From the IMG/VR virus record IMGVR_UViG_3300033146_001610, positions 1 to 26,305 of that record: DNA of 26,305 bases; one strand, given 5' to 3'. The position numbers and the translations under genes were made by a program. The notes under the pieces are model-generated. The model was not told where the DNA came from and did not search any database. It saw only the letters and a program-made list of their open reading frames with translations. The DNA is from a virus. This document shows positions 6,911 to 21,546 of this stretch, piece after piece. Every line of letters starts with the position of its first letter. The first letter of the stretch is position 1.

Positions 6911-8030
6911 TATAAGTAGTTTTACCATAAAACAGTTTGTTGAAGAATTGCCATTAGAATATATTGATAGACATAGAAGTGATTGTATAAACTTCAGATG
7001 TCCTTTTTGTGGTGATAGTCAAAAAAGTAAATTTAAAAGAAGAGGATATGTGATTTATACTGATTCTAGTGCTTATTACATATGTCATAATTGTGATGTT
7101 AGAATGGGTATATTTAAATTTATTCAATTATTAGATGTTACTGTGTATAACAGATTTAAAAGGGAAGTATTTCAAGGAAGTTTTAATGATTTTGTTAAAC
7201 CTAAACCAAAAAAACTAAAAGTTATTGTTGATGTAGAGAATGACACTGAAGATTTGCAGGAGAGCGATGATAACAAGTCTAAGATACCATTAAGGTCAAT
7301 TGTAAATTATCATGCGAAGAGCAAAGGTGCTGTTTATTTAACTAATAGACGAATACCTAAACTTAATTGGAATGATATATATTATTTTAAAGGTAATGTT
7401 TATCAATTATATCAAGAAATATTTAATGATGATAAGTACAAACGAAAAGCAGATAAAATTTTAGACCACGAAGGAATAGTAGTACCATTTTATAATATAG
7501 ATAGAGAATTATATGGTTTTACTCTTAGAAGTACAAAAGAAAAAGGAATGAGATATGTTACACTTGGTGTTGATAATATAGAATCTGGAATGTTTGGTAT
7601 TGATATAGTTGATTTTACACTTAAATTTTATATAGTTGAAGGAATATTTGATAGACTATCGTTTAATCCATGTAATCAAATTATGGCTATGAAATCAAGT
7701 AATCCACATATTGATAATATACCAAAAGAATATTTAAAAAATGCAACTTATATATTTGATAATGAGTATCATAATAAAGAATTATTAAAACCAATAAAAA
7801 AAGTAATATTAAAGGGTATTAATGTTGTTCTTTTTGATGAGAATTTTAAATATAAGGATATAAACGAAGCATTAAATAATGGTGTTACAGAAGATGAATT
7901 AAGATTATATTTTGATAAGAGACAATTTAAAGGATTGGGTGCTACTATTGAATTAGATAGATTAGCACACATAAGTAAATCTAAAAAACATATGGAGGTA
8001 ATGAATGGTAAAAAAACAACAATCTGCTAG
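6903..8030 (+). CDS. 61: DNA primase gp61
   Basis: DnaG-type primase that makes RNA primers on the lagging strand with helicase gp41. The N-terminal zinc ribbon is CPFC at 33-36 and CHNC at 61-64. The TOPRIM part has FYIVEGIFDRLSF, with the catalytic glutamate at 246, and IFDN at 284-287. Its 375 residues are close to T4 gp61 (342). A TTG at 6885 opens the frame, but ATG 6903 is chosen because AAGGG lies 5 bases upstream and it overlaps the end of gene 55 by 8 bases. Its 3' end overlaps the next gene by 26 bases. The second acidic TOPRIM motif (DNEYHN) is less canonical than DxD. Confidence 0.9.
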   Translation: MINISSFTIKQFVEELPLEYIDRHRSDCINFRCPFCGDSQKSKFKRRGYVIYTDSSAYYICHNCDVRMGIFKFIQLLDVTVYNRFKREVFQGSFNDFVKPKPKKLKVIVDVENDTEDLQESDDNKSKIPLRSIVNYHAKSKGAVYLTNRRIPKLNWNDIYYFKGNVYQLYQEIFNDDKYKRKADKILDHEGIVVPFYNIDRELYGFTLRSTKEKGMRYVTLGVDNIESGMFGIDIVDFTLKFYIVEGIFDRLSFNPCNQIMAMKSSNPHIDNIPKEYLKNATYIFDNEYHNKELLKPIKKVILKGINVVLFDENFKYKDINEALNNGVTEDELRLYFDKRQFKGLGATIELDRLAHISKSKKHMEVMNGKKTTIC

Positions 8031-14819: not shown

Positions 14820-16349
14820 ATGGTAAAAAGGAGAAAATCAAGAACTATTCGTGCAGGTGAAACTGCAATGAATAGCATTCTTATGGGTGATTTACTTAGT
14901 CACGAGAATGATAGCGAAACTATAATAAATAATAATTCCAATTTTTTCTCTTTCTTTTCTAGTGGTATACAAGAAAAAACATTACATAATGAAAAGGAAT
15001 TAACTCAAAAGTATAGAGAATACTCAGAAATAACAGATATTAGTAATGCGTTAGATATTATTAGTGGAGAGGCTGTTATATATGATGAAAATATTGATGA
15101 GCGAGTATTAAATATTAATATTAAGAAGATACCATATTTTAATGCAAAAACACGTGATTTATTAGAAATGGAAATATTGGAATCATTTGATAAGATATAC
15201 AACACTCTTAATTTTGATGTTGATGGTGAATCTTTATTTAGAAGATGGTATATTGATGCAAAATTATATTTGTGGGTTGATTTTGACGATGAATTAAGTG
15301 AAGGATTAAACTCTATTTACTATCTCGACCCTATAAGATTAAGTAAACATAAGCAAGGTGCTGAAGTATATTATAGATATACACTACAAAAGGATAAGGA
15401 TAGAAAACAATATAAATTCATTGATATTCCTGAAAAACATATTTATTATTTATCAAGTGGTTTGATAGGTAAGAAAGGTCTAACTATGGGGTATTTAAAT
15501 AAAGCTATTAGACCAATGAGTGCTTTAAAGATGATGGAAAATAGTGTTATGATTTCTGTAATGTCAAGGGCTCCAGAAAGATTTAAATTTAAGTTATATA
15601 CTAGCGGAATGGCAACCCCATTAGCAGAACAATATATGAGAAGTTTGGCAAGAAGATATTCTAATAGATTTTATATTGATGGAACTACTGGAGAGATAAG
15701 AGGTGATGTATCACGAATGAGTGTTATTGAAAACTTTTATTTTGGAAGAGATAAACAAGGTGAAGGGCATGACGTTGAAGCAATAAAAGGCACTGACCCT
15801 ATGACTAATATTGGGTTGTTAGAATATTATTGGGATAAGGCTATAAATTCTCTAAATATAGACCCTTCTTTATTGCAGAATAAAAATAGCTTTGGTTTTG
15901 GTGCAGAAAAAGAAGATAATAAAGCATTAAAAGATTTATATAAATTTATTTCTAAATTGAGAAGAAAAAGTATAAAACCACTTTTTATGGATTTGATTAA
16001 AAAGGATTTAATATTAAGAAATATTATTACTCCTGATATGTGGGAATATATGAATAGATATATTCAATTTAAATATAATAATGACAATAAGATGGAAGAG
16101 CTTAAACTAGAGCAGAAACTAACATCTATGTTTGAGAAGTATCCACAAGCAAAACAAATGTATTTAGAAGGATTTATGACAATTGAGGATTTTTATAAAA
16201 TAGTATATGATTTACCAGAGCATAAATTAGATGAGGTTAAATCTATAAGAAAATCTAATTTAGTAAATCTTGCTTCTGAAAAGAAATTAATGGTAGATTT
16301 AAATCTAAAGGATAAAGATGAATTTAACGATATAGGAGAATATGAGTAA
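14820..16349 (+). CDS. 20: Portal vertex protein gp20
   Basis: Dodecameric ring at the head vertex through which DNA is packaged and to which the tail attaches; it also initiates prohead assembly. The 509 residues fit T4 gp20 (524). Recognisable stretches are the early RKYSEI-like and ALDIISGEAVI segment (about 78-88), LNSIYYLDPIRL, the APERFKFKLYTS block (about 250), the RRYSNRFYIDGTTGEIRGD segment, and the long DIEAIKGTDP-type helix region leading to DPSLLQNKNSFGFGAE. TAGGAGAT precedes the ATG. Its stop overlaps the gp21 start by one base (TAATG). Confidence 0.92.
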   Translation: MVKRRKSRTIRAGETAMNSILMGDLLSHENDSETIINNNSNFFSFFSSGIQEKTLHNEKELTQKYREYSEITDISNALDIISGEAVIYDENIDERVLNINIKKIPYFNAKTRDLLEMEILESFDKIYNTLNFDVDGESLFRRWYIDAKLYLWVDFDDELSEGLNSIYYLDPIRLSKHKQGAEVYYRYTLQKDKDRKQYKFIDIPEKHIYYLSSGLIGKKGLTMGYLNKAIRPMSALKMMENSVMISVMSRAPERFKFKLYTSGMATPLAEQYMRSLARRYSNRFYIDGTTGEIRGDVSRMSVIENFYFGRDKQGEGHDVEAIKGTDPMTNIGLLEYYWDKAINSLNIDPSLLQNKNSFGFGAEKEDNKALKDLYKFISKLRRKSIKPLFMDLIKKDLILRNIITPDMWEYMNRYIQFKYNNDNKMEELKLEQKLTSMFEKYPQAKQMYLEGFMTIEDFYKIVYDLPEHKLDEVKSIRKSNLVNLASEKKLMVDLNLKDKDEFNDIGEYE

Positions 16350-17077
16350 TGCGGACAGTAAAAAGCGATTATAATAATGCTTATGAAATTATTAAAGATG
16401 ATGATACATCTACAGGAGTGTATGTATGTAACGAAAGCCATAATATATCAGAAAGTCTGATAGAAACTGAGGGTGGTAAAAAATATTATTTTGAAGGAAC
16501 TGCAACACAGGCGGAACTTGTAAATGGTAACTCAAGAAAATATTTAATTGATGAAATGGTAAGTGAATGTGATGGTTATCAATCTTTAATTGTAGAAGGA
16601 AGAGCAGTTGGTGAATTAAATCACCCACACAATCCTTCTATAAACCCAGAAAGAATAGCACTAAAGATAGTTGAGTATAAGAGAATTGGTGATACAAATG
16701 ATTTTTATCATAAATCACAAGTATTAGATTATGGTCTTGGTAAATTAATTATTGGTCATATGGATAATGGAATACAACTTGCTACATCTAGTAGGGGTCT
16801 AGCTAAATTTGTAAAGAAGGGTGATATTATAATCGCTAAGAATTTTAAACTTATTACTCCTGCTGATATAGTTTGGAATAACTCTGCACCTGATGCTATA
16901 CCAAAATACGTAAAAGAAGATATATTAAATATGGCATTTGAGGAAGTTGATATTATGAATGGTATATATTCAAAAGAAATAGATTGTGTATATAATACAC
17001 TTCATACATCTTCAAAATTCAATTTAAATGATAGTATAAATAAAGCATATGAACAGCTAATGAATGTTGTAGTTTAA
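16349..17077 (+). CDS. 21: Prohead core protease gp21
   Basis: Serine protease that matures the prohead by cutting scaffold and capsid proteins, typically after L/I-x-E. The 242 residues compare with 212 in T4. Key blocks are GRAVGELNHPHNPSINPERIA, with the likely catalytic H92, and ATSSRGL, with the likely nucleophile at S147 or S148. A run of beta strands lies between them, and LITPADIVWNNSAPDA follows. AGGAGA at 16334-16339 precedes the ATG. The portal, protease, scaffold and capsid order is as in T4, apart from genes 67 and 68, which are not separate here. The N-terminal 30 residues are extra and acidic. Confidence 0.9.
   Translation: MRTVKSDYNNAYEIIKDDDTSTGVYVCNESHNISESLIETEGGKKYYFEGTATQAELVNGNSRKYLIDEMVSECDGYQSLIVEGRAVGELNHPHNPSINPERIALKIVEYKRIGDTNDFYHKSQVLDYGLGKLIIGHMDNGIQLATSSRGLAKFVKKGDIIIAKNFKLITPADIVWNNSAPDAIPKYVKEDILNMAFEEVDIMNGIYSKEIDCVYNTLHTSSKFNLNDSINKAYEQLMNVVV
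17035..17042 (+). promoter_or_regulatory. Possible late promoter before the scaffold gene
   Basis: Exact TATAAATA 53 bases before the scaffold ATG, inside the last codons of gp21. The placement suits a late promoter, but chance cannot be excluded. Confidence 0.4.
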
Positions 17078-17095: not shown

Positions 17096-19252
17096 ATGAC
17101 AATTAAACTTAAAGAAGTTTATGAAAAGGAAGGTTGGACACCTGAGCAACATAGAGATTATACATCATCTATGAAAACTGCTGTTGAGTCTAAAAATCCA
17201 CAAGTGGTTTTAGATTTTTTAGAAGAAAATCTAAAGAAATGTGATGATGACACATATACTGTGGTTTGTGAAGCAAATATTGAATCTATTAATTCTCTTA
17301 TTGAGGAAGCAATCTCTAACACAAGTAAAGATAATGAGATTGAGAACGAGGGTGGAAGTAAAATCACTAATAAAGTACAAGATGCACTTGATGCTTTAAA
17401 AGCAAAGAACTCACAATTTGATTTTAGAACAATTAGTGGCGAAACTGATGATACTATCACAGTTACTTTATTTGGAGATGATAGTAATGATACTAACACT
17501 TTTACTTATACTGGTAGTGGTGATGGTAGCTATGCTAATTTCAAAAAGTGGTTGGATTCTGCATATAAAGAATACTATGGTGGACTTGATACTAACAGTA
17601 CAGTTCAAGACCCTCAAATTATCGCAAAGCAAGTTACTGCGTTTAATGAAGGTATTGTTTTTGGTTTAGATACTTTTCCTAATGAACTTACTCTTACAGA
17701 AGAACAAAAGAAAGATGAAGAGTTTGAAAAAGGTGCAAAAAAAGGTTGGAACTCAGCAAAGAAAATATCTGATGAATCAATCAAAAAAGCAAATGTAGGT
17801 GATAACCCAACACAAGACCCTGAAACCTATGGTACAAAAGAAACTGGTAAGAAAGGCGTAAAAACTGGTGATGATGATATAGAATCTGATAAAGCCAGAA
17901 AACAGACTACTGAAGTTATTAAGCCTAGAAAAGGTAAAATTTCAAAAGAGTCTAAAGAAGCCTTTGAAAGTGGTTATGAAGATGGTTATAATGAAAGAGA
18001 AAGTAAATATGCGAAAAAGGATAATAATACTCAAGATGAAAAAGAGTATATGGACGGTTATAAATCTGGCAAAATTAAAAGGTCAAGTAATGAATCATTA
18101 GACCACGATTTGGCTACTGACGCAAGAATTAAACTTTATCTAGGTGAATCTGTCGAAGCTGTTGTTAAGGGTTATGTTTTAGATACCTTAGAAAATGGTA
18201 GAATATCAGATACAATAAAAACAATAAAAGAAGATGCTAAATATCTCACTTTTATTGATTATAAATATATTGTTGAAAGTTATGTTTTGGAACTTGGTTT
18301 TCATGGTATAAACAATGTTTGTATTATTGAAGAAGACGAAATATCTTTTACGGAAAGTGAATTACAAGAAATATATGAGGAGGCTCAAATGGCTAGACCT
18401 AAGACTAAGATTAAAGATGCTAAAGGCTCTGAAAAAGAGAATAACACTATTGATACAAAAAATAGTGAATATCTCGATACAGTTTCAGACCATCAAGTAG
18501 AAGAATTTAAAAAGAAAGCAAAAGGCTCAATGACTGATGCAGAAAACATTAAAGCATTCGAATTGATGTTTGACATTAAATTATCACCAGCTGGACAAAA
18601 TGTTTTTGGAACTAAACTCAATCAAAATGCTGAGCTTGGCGGTGATGGAGCGACTAGTGATACTATATCTGATGATATGGTTAAACAATTTAAAGAACTC
18701 ACTAAACCAATGAAATGGGAAAAAGCTAAAGAGATTTTTATGAAAATGTTTGATATTAAAGAAATGTCAACTAAAGTAGAAGCTTCTTTTAAGACTAAAT
18801 TAGAACAAGATGATTTACTTGGTGCTAGTGGTAAACCAGAAGAAACTGTATCAGATAAGATTGATGGTATAGGTAACAAAAAGGTTATGGAATCAATGGA
18901 GACTCTAGCTAACAGCATGAAAACTATGGCTGAGGGTATAACTAAGGGTTTTGAGACTTTAGGTAGTAAGCTATCTAATGTTGATGAAAGTATTAATGCT
19001 GATACACTCAAGAAATCAAAGAAAGAAATAATTGAGGAAGCAATTAAACTTTATAATGTTGATGTTGTTGCAACTCAAGTTGAATTAACATCTGTATGTG
19101 AATCATTAGGTTATGAATCACCTGAACAATATAAAAAAGCTGTTGATACTGTTGTTAAATTGGGAAGTACTAAACCAAAATTAGCAGAAGAATCAACTGT
19201 TTTTGGAAATGAAGAAAAATATACGCAAAAAGCGAAAAAGTATTTTAGATAG
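17096..19252 (+). CDS. 22: Large prohead scaffold/core protein at the gp22 position
   Basis: Lies between protease and capsid genes, where T4 has the scaffold gp22 (269 residues), but encodes 718 residues. Composition is that of a scaffold: highly charged, lysine/glutamate rich and low complexity. Residues 205-330 contain repeated FEKGAKKGW, FESGYEDGYN and YMDGYKSGK units. Residues 463-517 and 523-577 are two copies of one helical domain. Residues 595-630 form a coiled-coil-like helix. GAGGAGG plus ATG at 18389 would start an in-frame product of 287 residues from codon 432. AAAGGAGAT precedes the ATG at 17096. A scaffold role is inferred from place, composition and size of the nested product. 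The first 431 residues are not recognised and may do the job of gp67/gp68 or an internal head protein. Confidence 0.75.
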   Translation: MTIKLKEVYEKEGWTPEQHRDYTSSMKTAVESKNPQVVLDFLEENLKKCDDDTYTVVCEANIESINSLIEEAISNTSKDNEIENEGGSKITNKVQDALDALKAKNSQFDFRTISGETDDTITVTLFGDDSNDTNTFTYTGSGDGSYANFKKWLDSAYKEYYGGLDTNSTVQDPQIIAKQVTAFNEGIVFGLDTFPNELTLTEEQKKDEEFEKGAKKGWNSAKKISDESIKKANVGDNPTQDPETYGTKETGKKGVKTGDDDIESDKARKQTTEVIKPRKGKISKESKEAFESGYEDGYNERESKYAKKDNNTQDEKEYMDGYKSGKIKRSSNESLDHDLATDARIKLYLGESVEAVVKGYVLDTLENGRISDTIKTIKEDAKYLTFIDYKYIVESYVLELGFHGINNVCIIEEDEISFTESELQEIYEEAQMARPKTKIKDAKGSEKENNTIDTKNSEYLDTVSDHQVEEFKKKAKGSMTDAENIKAFELMFDIKLSPAGQNVFGTKLNQNAELGGDGATSDTISDDMVKQFKELTKPMKWEKAKEIFMKMFDIKEMSTKVEASFKTKLEQDDLLGASGKPEETVSDKIDGIGNKKVMESMETLANSMKTMAEGITKGFETLGSKLSNVDESINADTLKKSKKEIIEEAIKLYNVDVVATQVELTSVCESLGYESPEQYKKAVDTVVKLGSTKPKLAEESTVFGNEEKYTQKAKKYFR
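18377..18391 (+). promoter_or_regulatory. Internal ribosome-binding site and ATG for a nested scaffold
   Basis: GAGGAGG at 18377-18383 is followed after 5 bases by ATG at 18389-18391, in frame with the large scaffold gene (codon 432). It is among the strongest Shine-Dalgarno sequences in the window. The product would be 287 residues beginning MARPKTK, close to T4 gp22 in size. Confidence 0.65.
18482..18646 (+). repeat. Scaffold domain repeat, copy 1
   Basis: Encodes residues 463-517: VSDHQVEEFKKKAK, then FELMFDIKLS, then FGTKLNQNAELGG. Aligns without large gaps to copy 2. Confidence 0.7.
18662..18826 (+). repeat. Scaffold domain repeat, copy 2
   Basis: Encodes residues 523-577: TISDDMVKQFKELTK, then FMKMFDIKEMS, then FKTKLEQDDLLGA. 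The copies are diverged at DNA level, so this is an old duplication. Confidence 0.7.
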
Positions 19253-19300: not shown

Positions 19301-20644
19301 ATGTTGTACGGAAAATTGATTGAAGAACATGTTGATACATTCAAGGAAATTCTTGAAGAAAATCCATATGTTGCCGAGGAAAGTCATAGAATGAGCAATA
19401 TGGCTCTTTTATGTGCCGCAGAAACTACACTTGTTGAAGAAAATTCTGTAAGTGGAGATATTGCAGGTTATGACAAATTTTTATTTAAACTTGTAGAAAG
19501 AGGATACCCAGCTGTTATTGGTTTGGATATTTTCGGTGTACAAATGATGGACGGTCCTACTGGTATGATTTTCTCTCTATGGAGAAGTTATGCAGGTGAT
19601 GATTTGGCTCCAGGAACCGTTAAAAAATCTGATGGTGTTATTCTTGTAGTTGATAATGCAACTGTATTTACAGCACAAAATGATATAATTACAAATAGTA
19701 CAACTGGTGCTACTGGAAGTGTTGTACTTGTTGATGGTTTTAAATTGCTTGTAAAAATCACTGGTGCTGGTGGTTGGAATGCTACTGATGTAGTTACTGA
19801 TGGTGTGACATCTATTAATGTTGTTATCGCTGATGATAATGTTTTAGGATACAAACATGTATTTACAGACCAAGCAAAATTTTCTTCTGTTTACGCAGGT
19901 GAAATTGCTTCAACAAACATTAAACAAATCACAATCAACATTGAAAAACTCACTGCTGTTGCTGAAACTTTCAAAATGAAAGCTAAATATACAGAAGAGA
20001 TGAGACAAGATTTGGCTAAACTTCATAGAAAAGATGCTTCAAATATCTTTGCAGGTGTTGCTTCACAAGAGTTTGCACTTGAATTGAATGCACAACTTTT
20101 ACAAGTTATGAAAGTTAGAGCTGGTGAGGGTGGAACTCTTGCTTATGATTATGCTTCTGCTATTGGAATGAGTCAAAAACAAAAAATCGAAAGTTTGGTT
20201 GCTACAATTGCAAGAGCAACTGGTCAAATTGCAAAAAGCTCAATGATGGGTTTTGCTAATTGGGCTGTTATGGACGTTGAAACTTTTATGACTCTTTTTA
20301 TTATGGGATTCGTTGATAAATCAATGCTACCTAATAAAATCCTCGACCCTACACTTAACGCTTTTGTTGGTGTTTTGGTTGGACAATGGAGAGTTTATAT
20401 TGATTTATTTGAAGATGATACTGTTATCTATCTTGGATATAAAGACCTTAGTGGAAGACCTGAAGCTGAATGGAAAGCAGGTATTTACTTTTGCCCATAT
20501 ATTCCAGTAGAGAGTATTGAAGTTAGAGACCCTGAAAGTGGTCAACCTAGATTGATTTTCACTACTAGATACGCTCTAGTTGAGAATCCTTTCGGAGCAA
20601 AGAATTTTTACAGAAAAATTACTGTTGCTAATCTTCCTGCATAA
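19301..20644 (+). CDS. 23: Major capsid protein gp23 precursor
   Basis: Forms the hexamers of the head shell (HK97 fold). The 447 residues are shorter than T4 gp23 (521). Conserved blocks are GLDIFGVQMMDGPTGMIFSL at 74-93, AETFKMKAKYTEEMRQDL, GVLVGQWRVYIDLF, and AGIYFCPYIPVESIEVRDPESGQPR with the C-terminal TRYALVENPFG. TLVE-ENSV at 43-50 aligns with the T4 propeptide cleavage region and fits the L-x-E rule, giving predicted cleavage after E46. A beta-rich, Thr/Val-rich insert (about 113-178) replaces the T4 insertion region. Codon choice is somewhat richer in C-ending codons than in neighbours, consistent with high expression. TAGGAG precedes the ATG. Confidence 0.93.
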   Translation: MLYGKLIEEHVDTFKEILEENPYVAEESHRMSNMALLCAAETTLVEENSVSGDIAGYDKFLFKLVERGYPAVIGLDIFGVQMMDGPTGMIFSLWRSYAGDDLAPGTVKKSDGVILVVDNATVFTAQNDIITNSTTGATGSVVLVDGFKLLVKITGAGGWNATDVVTDGVTSINVVIADDNVLGYKHVFTDQAKFSSVYAGEIASTNIKQITINIEKLTAVAETFKMKAKYTEEMRQDLAKLHRKDASNIFAGVASQEFALELNAQLLQVMKVRAGEGGTLAYDYASAIGMSQKQKIESLVATIARATGQIAKSSMMGFANWAVMDVETFMTLFIMGFVDKSMLPNKILDPTLNAFVGVLVGQWRVYIDLFEDDTVIYLGYKDLSGRPEAEWKAGIYFCPYIPVESIEVRDPESGQPRLIFTTRYALVENPFGAKNFYRKITVANLPA

Positions 20645-20768: not shown

Positions 20769-20782
20769 TATTTTTTACTAGG
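20769..20782 (+). promoter_or_regulatory. TATTTTTTACTAGG leader box
   Basis: Differs by one base from the box before the RNase H gene (3368-3381) and shares TTACTAGG with the gene 39 leader (4340-4347). It ends in the AGGTGA Shine-Dalgarno of the 20791 gene. Confidence 0.4.
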
Positions 20783-20790
20783 TGATTAAA

Positions 20791-21546
20791 ATGAGTATAT
20801 TCTTTAAAGTTAATAAGTTACCAATATATATTGAACGAGTTGACCACTTTGAGGAGATACAAAATAGAAAAGCATTAATGAATCAAGATGATGATATTGT
20901 GCTTGATATAGTATCTAATGATTATAGGGTTATTACTAATTATGAAGTTTATACTAACATTACTAAAGCATTAGATTATAATAATATAAAGTGGAAATTA
21001 GGTAGAAATGAGAGTGTTAGAAATGGTATTAATAATCTAATAGAAATAGAATTACCTGAATATATGATAAGAACTAAATATGCAAATGCTTCATTAAGAT
21101 TATATATTTTAAATGATTTCGTGCGTGGTAGTAAACCTATAATAAAGAGTGGTTTTGTTACTAATTTTAATGGAACTATGATTTTAAATAGTACTATGCT
21201 AACTGAGTTATTTAATGAGGAAGATTTAAATATTAATATGGTTAAATATATTAATGAAATATATAAAAATTTAAATTACTATATATCATCTTTAGCTAAT
21301 AATAGTTTCAATGATGTACGTTCTGTATTGGATTTTGTAGAAGCAAATAATAATGAATCAAATACTTTTAAAAAAGAGTTTATTGAAATATGGGATAATG
21401 TTTATGAAGGTACTTTAAATTCTTGGGTTATAATGAATATATATCTTGATGTAATATCAAGAAAATCAAATGCTAGACTAATAAATAAAATGCGATATTA
21501 TAGTAATTTATACCGTAGATTTAATTATTTTATTGAGGTTTTATAA
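20791..21546 (+). CDS. DUF932-like protein upstream of uvsX
   Basis: A 251-residue protein. The stretch VLDIVSNDYRVITNYEVYTNI (about 40-60) and the later Asn-Ala-Ser-Leu-Arg-Leu and KSGFVTNFNGT segments resemble phage/plasmid DUF932 proteins, whose role is not known to me with confidence. GTG at 20782 also opens the frame, but ATG 20791 is preferred because AGGTGA at 20780-20785 is correctly spaced only for it. It is the first gene of an operon with a 177-residue orphan, uvsX and gene 41, which suggests a DNA-metabolism role. The C-terminus is helical and aromatic. Confidence 0.6.
   Translation: MSIFFKVNKLPIYIERVDHFEEIQNRKALMNQDDDIVLDIVSNDYRVITNYEVYTNITKALDYNNIKWKLGRNESVRNGINNLIEIELPEYMIRTKYANASLRLYILNDFVRGSKPIIKSGFVTNFNGTMILNSTMLTELFNEEDLNINMVKYINEIYKNLNYYISSLANNSFNDVRSVLDFVEANNNESNTFKKEFIEIWDNVYEGTLNSWVIMNIYLDVISRKSNARLINKMRYYSNLYRRFNYFIEVL

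Follow-up and report, generated by a model that had tools for sequence, protein, structure and literature searches.

Nested scaffold genes have been described in systems that join the scaffold and its protease in one protein. In phage lambda, C/Nu3 is a nested protease-scaffold gene, while herpesvirus UL26/UL26.5 provide long and short co-terminal scaffold proteins for capsid assembly, made from separate transcripts and with the protease as the N-terminal part. In phage T4, gene 21 has a second start at Met45, yielding gp21s, which is reported to be essential for head assembly (PMC9026906). The T4 gp21 protease cuts after L/I-x-E, and splits gp22 into several fragments (PMC9026906). A search of the open-access literature, a scope outside which most subscription papers lie, found no report of an internal start in gp22.

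The DNA analysed here (the window) is a complete 26,305-base IMG/VR record from an uncultured, divergent T4-type phage, in which gp20, gp21, gp23, the scaffold-position ORF and the features within that ORF described below lie on the + strand. A 718-codon ORF occupies the gp22 (scaffold) position (17096..19252), and contains an in-frame internal ribosome-binding site and start that would give a scaffold-sized C-terminal product. The best explanation, to which we assign a probability of about 0.68, is that a gp22-type scaffold gene was fused to an acidic 431-residue N-terminal extension with retention of the gp22 ribosome-binding site and start, so that two co-terminal proteins would be made.

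The gene order gp20-gp21-ORF-gp23 corresponds to the gp20-gp21-gp22-gp23 order of T4-type scaffold genes, with the portal gp20 (14820..16349; PF07230, E 2.8e-66) and the prohead protease gp21, a separate gene (16349..17077; PF03420, E 2.3e-18), upstream of the ORF, and the major capsid protein gp23 (19301..20644; PF07068, E 7.9e-59) downstream. The gp20 stop overlaps the gp21 start, leaving no space for genes in the gp67/68 position. Directly after gp23 lies an unusual capsid-gene neighbour, a 254-aa ORF (20782-21546) with weak likeness to TIGR03299 (E 0.004) and phrog_1221 (E 3e-4).

The nearest phages listed are distant, with gp23 just 27-29% and DNA polymerase ~27% identical to those of the window. 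No relatives in phages were found with the 718-aa protein as query, or with the 730-aa protein of its homologue (see below), and six exact peptide patterns of the 718-aa protein found none in viral contigs. Relatives were located by gp23 alignments in place of the scaffold ORF, giving 48-80 loci per scan. Among the closest of them (gp23 30-38% identical), gp22 stands alone as an ORF of 225-262 aa in which the gp22 profile can be recognised, and one or more small ORFs sit between gp21 and gp22 at a number of these loci. In the first set of loci, the 71 other complete scaffold-position ORFs span 241-477 aa (median 378). The preliminary description of this DNA gave the long ORF as 2.7 times the normal size, a figure that is correct against T4 gp22 and falls to ~1.9 times against these 71 ORFs. 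The full-length 718 aa lies outside the range of ~225-480 aa that characterizes gp22-type scaffolds, and only the putative nested product of 287 aa lies inside it. This product is also, as had been proposed, about the size of a stand-alone gp22. Among the relatives, gp21 ORFs of 293-301 aa with an additional C-terminal part of ~70 residues were observed (L098:4592-5497; L123:3362-4243; L007:3556-4437), the addition in L098 resembling by eye parts of small gp21-adjacent ORFs at other loci. The portal ORF reaches 638 aa in L097:1-1917, where it runs off the contig, and 961 aa in L099:2447-5332 and L117:2450-5335, those of other relatives being ~480-590 aa.

The full-length product starts at ATG 17096, preceded by the Shine-Dalgarno sequence AAAGGAG (-8.0 kcal/mol). 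The internal Shine-Dalgarno sequence GAGGAGG (18377..18383), the single occurrence of this heptamer in the window, is separated by the 5-nt spacer CTCAA from an in-frame ATG (18389..18391, codon 432), which leaves 287 aa; the coordinates, frame and product lengths given in the preliminary description were all confirmed. The anti-Shine-Dalgarno duplex energy at this site, -11.2 kcal/mol, is the best among the 188 in-frame internal ATGs of the window, and of the 25 gene starts scored, a single one surpasses it (-11.3 kcal/mol). Most genes of the phage are preceded by AGGAG-like sequences, which its host presumably recognises. The local RNA folding predicted at the internal site (-4.9 and -7.5 kcal/mol) is at least as strong as that at genuine starts. 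In gp20, codon 300 (15717) is another internal ATG that pairs strongly with the anti-Shine-Dalgarno sequence (-10.1 kcal/mol), and lies outside the best conserved Met pairs with the homologue.

The one homologue found for the long ORF is in the record IMGVR_UViG_3300040781_000269 (L215), which has the same synteny and a gp23 66% identical to that of the window. Its ORF (L215:5773-7965) encodes 730 aa, with 30% identity to the window protein across the full length (E 5e-84). Because the homologue is likewise one long ORF, an assembly artefact does not account for the length of 718 aa. The internal Shine-Dalgarno sequence and ATG, whose presence in relatives had been named as a check, are kept in this single homologue: the same heptamer (7087-7093) stands at the same 5-nt distance from an ATG at 7099, leaving 288 aa. 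The proteins at the site read YEEAQ-MARPKTK in the window and LEEGA-MKTK in L215, and the two internal Met residues are aligned by BLASTP, while MAFFT puts a 3-residue gap elsewhere. A DNA-pattern match in L298 was rejected as spurious, since the strand opposite it encodes a 1043-aa ORF that is unrelated.

Where the two ORFs share a residue, codon identity (0.619, against 0.595 in shuffled sequences) lies inside the shuffle range. Synonymous sites are therefore saturated and have lost the memory of ancestry, such that the shared site would reflect selection or chance, and not inherited DNA. GAA is the usual Glu codon, GAG accounting for 22% and 26% of Glu codons in the two ORFs, and each ORF contains exactly one GAG-GAG Glu pair, located in both at the internal site. 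In a synonymous-codon shuffle with the proteins fixed, which was run after the site had been seen and covers two genomes only, the observed energy was matched in 4.5% and 6.0% of trials (joint ~0.0027). Among 39 conserved internal Met pairs in nine shared genes, the pair at the internal start has energies of -11.2 and -11.7 kcal/mol, compared with ~-5.9 kcal/mol for the weaker member of the runner-up.

The main rival is that a nearly identical fragment is made by proteolysis, a possible but unlikely route in which only the full-length protein is translated and gp21 cuts at an L/I-x-E motif before residue 432, the Glu-Glu being kept for the protease and the likeness to a Shine-Dalgarno sequence being incidental. 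The gp21 gene adjoins the scaffold ORF, and candidate motifs are well placed, since I-Y-E in the window (codons 426-428, 18371..18379) and L-E-E in L215 (438-440) stop 3 and 2 residues short of the Met, respectively. However, such motifs occur 16-18 times per protein, and one near any given residue is often expected by chance. Proteolysis requires neither an ATG nor a fixed 5-nt spacing in both genomes, and leaves unexplained the choice of GAG-GAG in both ORFs, where GAA is usual.

That the internal start is a functionless chance match within a gene for one long scaffold protein appears improbable. Internal ATGs at -9 kcal/mol or better number 5/998 in 160 gp22-like ORFs (where several of the five have a Shine-Dalgarno sequence too distant from the ATG), 4/1,829 in gp23 and 12/1,721 in gp20. 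Strong pairs thus make up 0.2-0.7% of internal ATGs in these genes, and just two genomes are available, two points in favour of a chance match; nevertheless, chance would have to produce the same event at the aligned position in both genomes, with equal spacing. A lone strong site in a single gene would cause little surprise, and the case for the internal start rests on the recurrence of the site at the matching position in a homologue that is 30% identical.

The putative nested product (18389..19252; 287 aa, 288 aa in L215) would be the equivalent of gp22. Near its start are two tandem repeats of ~58 residues (residues 461-518 and 522-579; 18476..18832), with a local score of 79 compared with a maximum of 55 in 2,000 shuffles, which were modelled as two similar helical units with pLDDT up to ~77. 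An apparent relationship, by eye, of these repeats to a module of small gp21-gp22 ORFs in L098, L125, L128 and L129 was rejected, as scores were at shuffle level. A helical region (18833..19249) follows the repeats, and includes both a helix predicted at the C-terminus and a segment resembling gp22 (T4_CASP), with its best match at residues 637-688. This segment lies near the C-terminus, just upstream of gp23, as in gp22.

The C-terminal product of L215 matched Pfam T4_CASP (PF25623) at residues 179-268 (E 4.2e-5, 23.7 bits, below the curated cut-off of 27), a match that spans only the C-terminal third of the nested product; the window protein alone was unmatched. A profile built from the two C-terminal sequences, when run against 5,079 ORFs, 175 of them gp22-like, ranked gp22-like ORFs in all of the top seven places. 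Alignment with hhalign gave a weak match to gp22 for the C-terminal part (P 6e-4, probability 28%) and a weak N-terminal hit (P 0.015). The best domain scored 14.1 bits, while the highest score among the shuffles listed was 9.0. No match to phrog_237 was found in the window, and the gp22 model of close relatives gave no whole-length match. This weak but consistent signal, significant only when L215 is included, suggests homology of the C-terminal segment to gp22. The gp22 likeness anticipated in the preliminary description therefore survives as a weak signature detected through L215 and the pair profile, and fails for the window protein alone and for any match above cut-off. Structure models were of low confidence (mean pLDDT 52.6 and 44.9), with the nested product helical, and Foldseek comparison with viral models returned nothing at E <= 0.001.

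The N-terminal extension (residues 1-431; 17096..18388) has a capsid-targeting-like start, a low-complexity middle and a predicted helical stretch at 332-402. Its net charge is -33, shifting at the internal-start boundary to -4 in the nested product; the corresponding values in L215 are -44 and -9. In line with the preliminary description, which could put no name to it, searches with the extension gave nothing above cut-off in Pfam, PHROG, NCBIfam or PDB, and no protease family was matched. By eye, its first residues (MKITIKKILEDA in L215) resemble the starts of small gp21-gp22 proteins in relatives, e.g. MKTYKQFISEA, and by analogy may serve for capsid targeting, as do sequences reviewed in PMC9026906. 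Runs of 3-4 small ORFs between gp21 and gp22 at some loci (L118:4493-6121; L102:4791-6107; L122:2641-3908), several of which begin with this peptide or with MKSYKQFVNEE, have the appearance of new internal head proteins that bear capsid targeting sequences. The further suggestion, that T4-type gp67/gp68 core proteins were fused with gp22 to give this protein, is very improbable. In its favour, neither the window nor L215 has the small gene(s) present between gp20 and gp21 in most relatives, and several small gp20-gp21 ORFs rank high with the two-repeat profile. However, none of those matches is significant by itself, and in the reverse direction, families made from the small gp20-gp21 ORFs score the protein no better than shuffles.

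A T4-late-promoter-like motif, TATAAATA, lies 61 nt upstream of the scaffold ORF (17035..17042), and a similar motif lies 55 nt upstream of the start of the L215 homologue. In the AT-rich window TATAAATA is not enriched (12 found, 16 expected). Eleven of the 12 copies are on the + strand, and six (13505, 14780, 17035, 19257, 20736, 24709) lie 37-61 nt upstream of gene starts, including those of gp20, the scaffold ORF and gp23. These six look like T4-type late promoters, in a total count that is not above chance. A copy at 18260 was considered as an internal late promoter and rejected, and because the motif is not enriched in the window and is absent at that place in L215, no separate internal transcript is claimed.

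According to the preferred reading, an in-frame fusion of an upstream gene with gp22 would have left the gp22 ribosome-binding site in use, and the locus would produce both a full-length 718-aa form from ATG 17096 and a normal-sized 287-aa scaffold from ATG 18389. Both forms would enter the prohead core through their common C-terminal half, the long form bringing the extension into the core. Both would be cut by gp21, probably at several L/I-x-E sites including the one beside the internal start. A more elaborate version, which we regard as tentative and rather doubtful, is that the junction at residues 428-432 is doubly coded, serving as the start of the free scaffold and as a protease site at which the long form is cut to yield a near-identical scaffold. 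In that case, the acidic extension would represent a protein of the core, or one that is ejected, attached to the scaffold, and internal initiation would set the ratio of free to cargo-bearing scaffold in each head. If two forms are made, the locus would provide a natural system for investigating how the ratio of long to short scaffold determines head size or the loading of internal proteins, and would illustrate how annotation of one long ORF can conceal the actual scaffold.

In comparison with known systems, the locus resembles the T4 gp22-type scaffold (PF25623 T4_CASP, PHROG 237) in its position between gp21 and gp23, its helical C-terminal region, its weak C-terminal profile match and the length of the nested product. 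It differs from T4 gp22 in having the 431-residue N-terminal extension and the internal start, and in that the N-terminal part of the scaffold is replaced by the two tandem repeats. The likeness to lambda C/Nu3 pointed out in the preliminary description applies to the scaffold, whose translation would begin in frame within a longer head gene, of which it occupies the 3' end, but not to the protease, which in the window is a separate upstream ORF (16349-17077), the extension having no recognisable protease domain. As in T4 gene 21, internal initiation would let one T4-type head gene yield two co-terminal proteins; however, the gene is a different one, and the N-terminal difference, short in gene 21, amounts here to 431 residues. 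Herpesvirus UL26/UL26.5 share with it the long and short co-terminal scaffold forms, and differ in their separate transcripts and N-terminal protease. While nested scaffold genes as such are already known, this T4-type lineage, whose protease is a separate gene, seems to have reached two co-terminal scaffold forms by joining a different partner to gp22, with the gp22 start retained.
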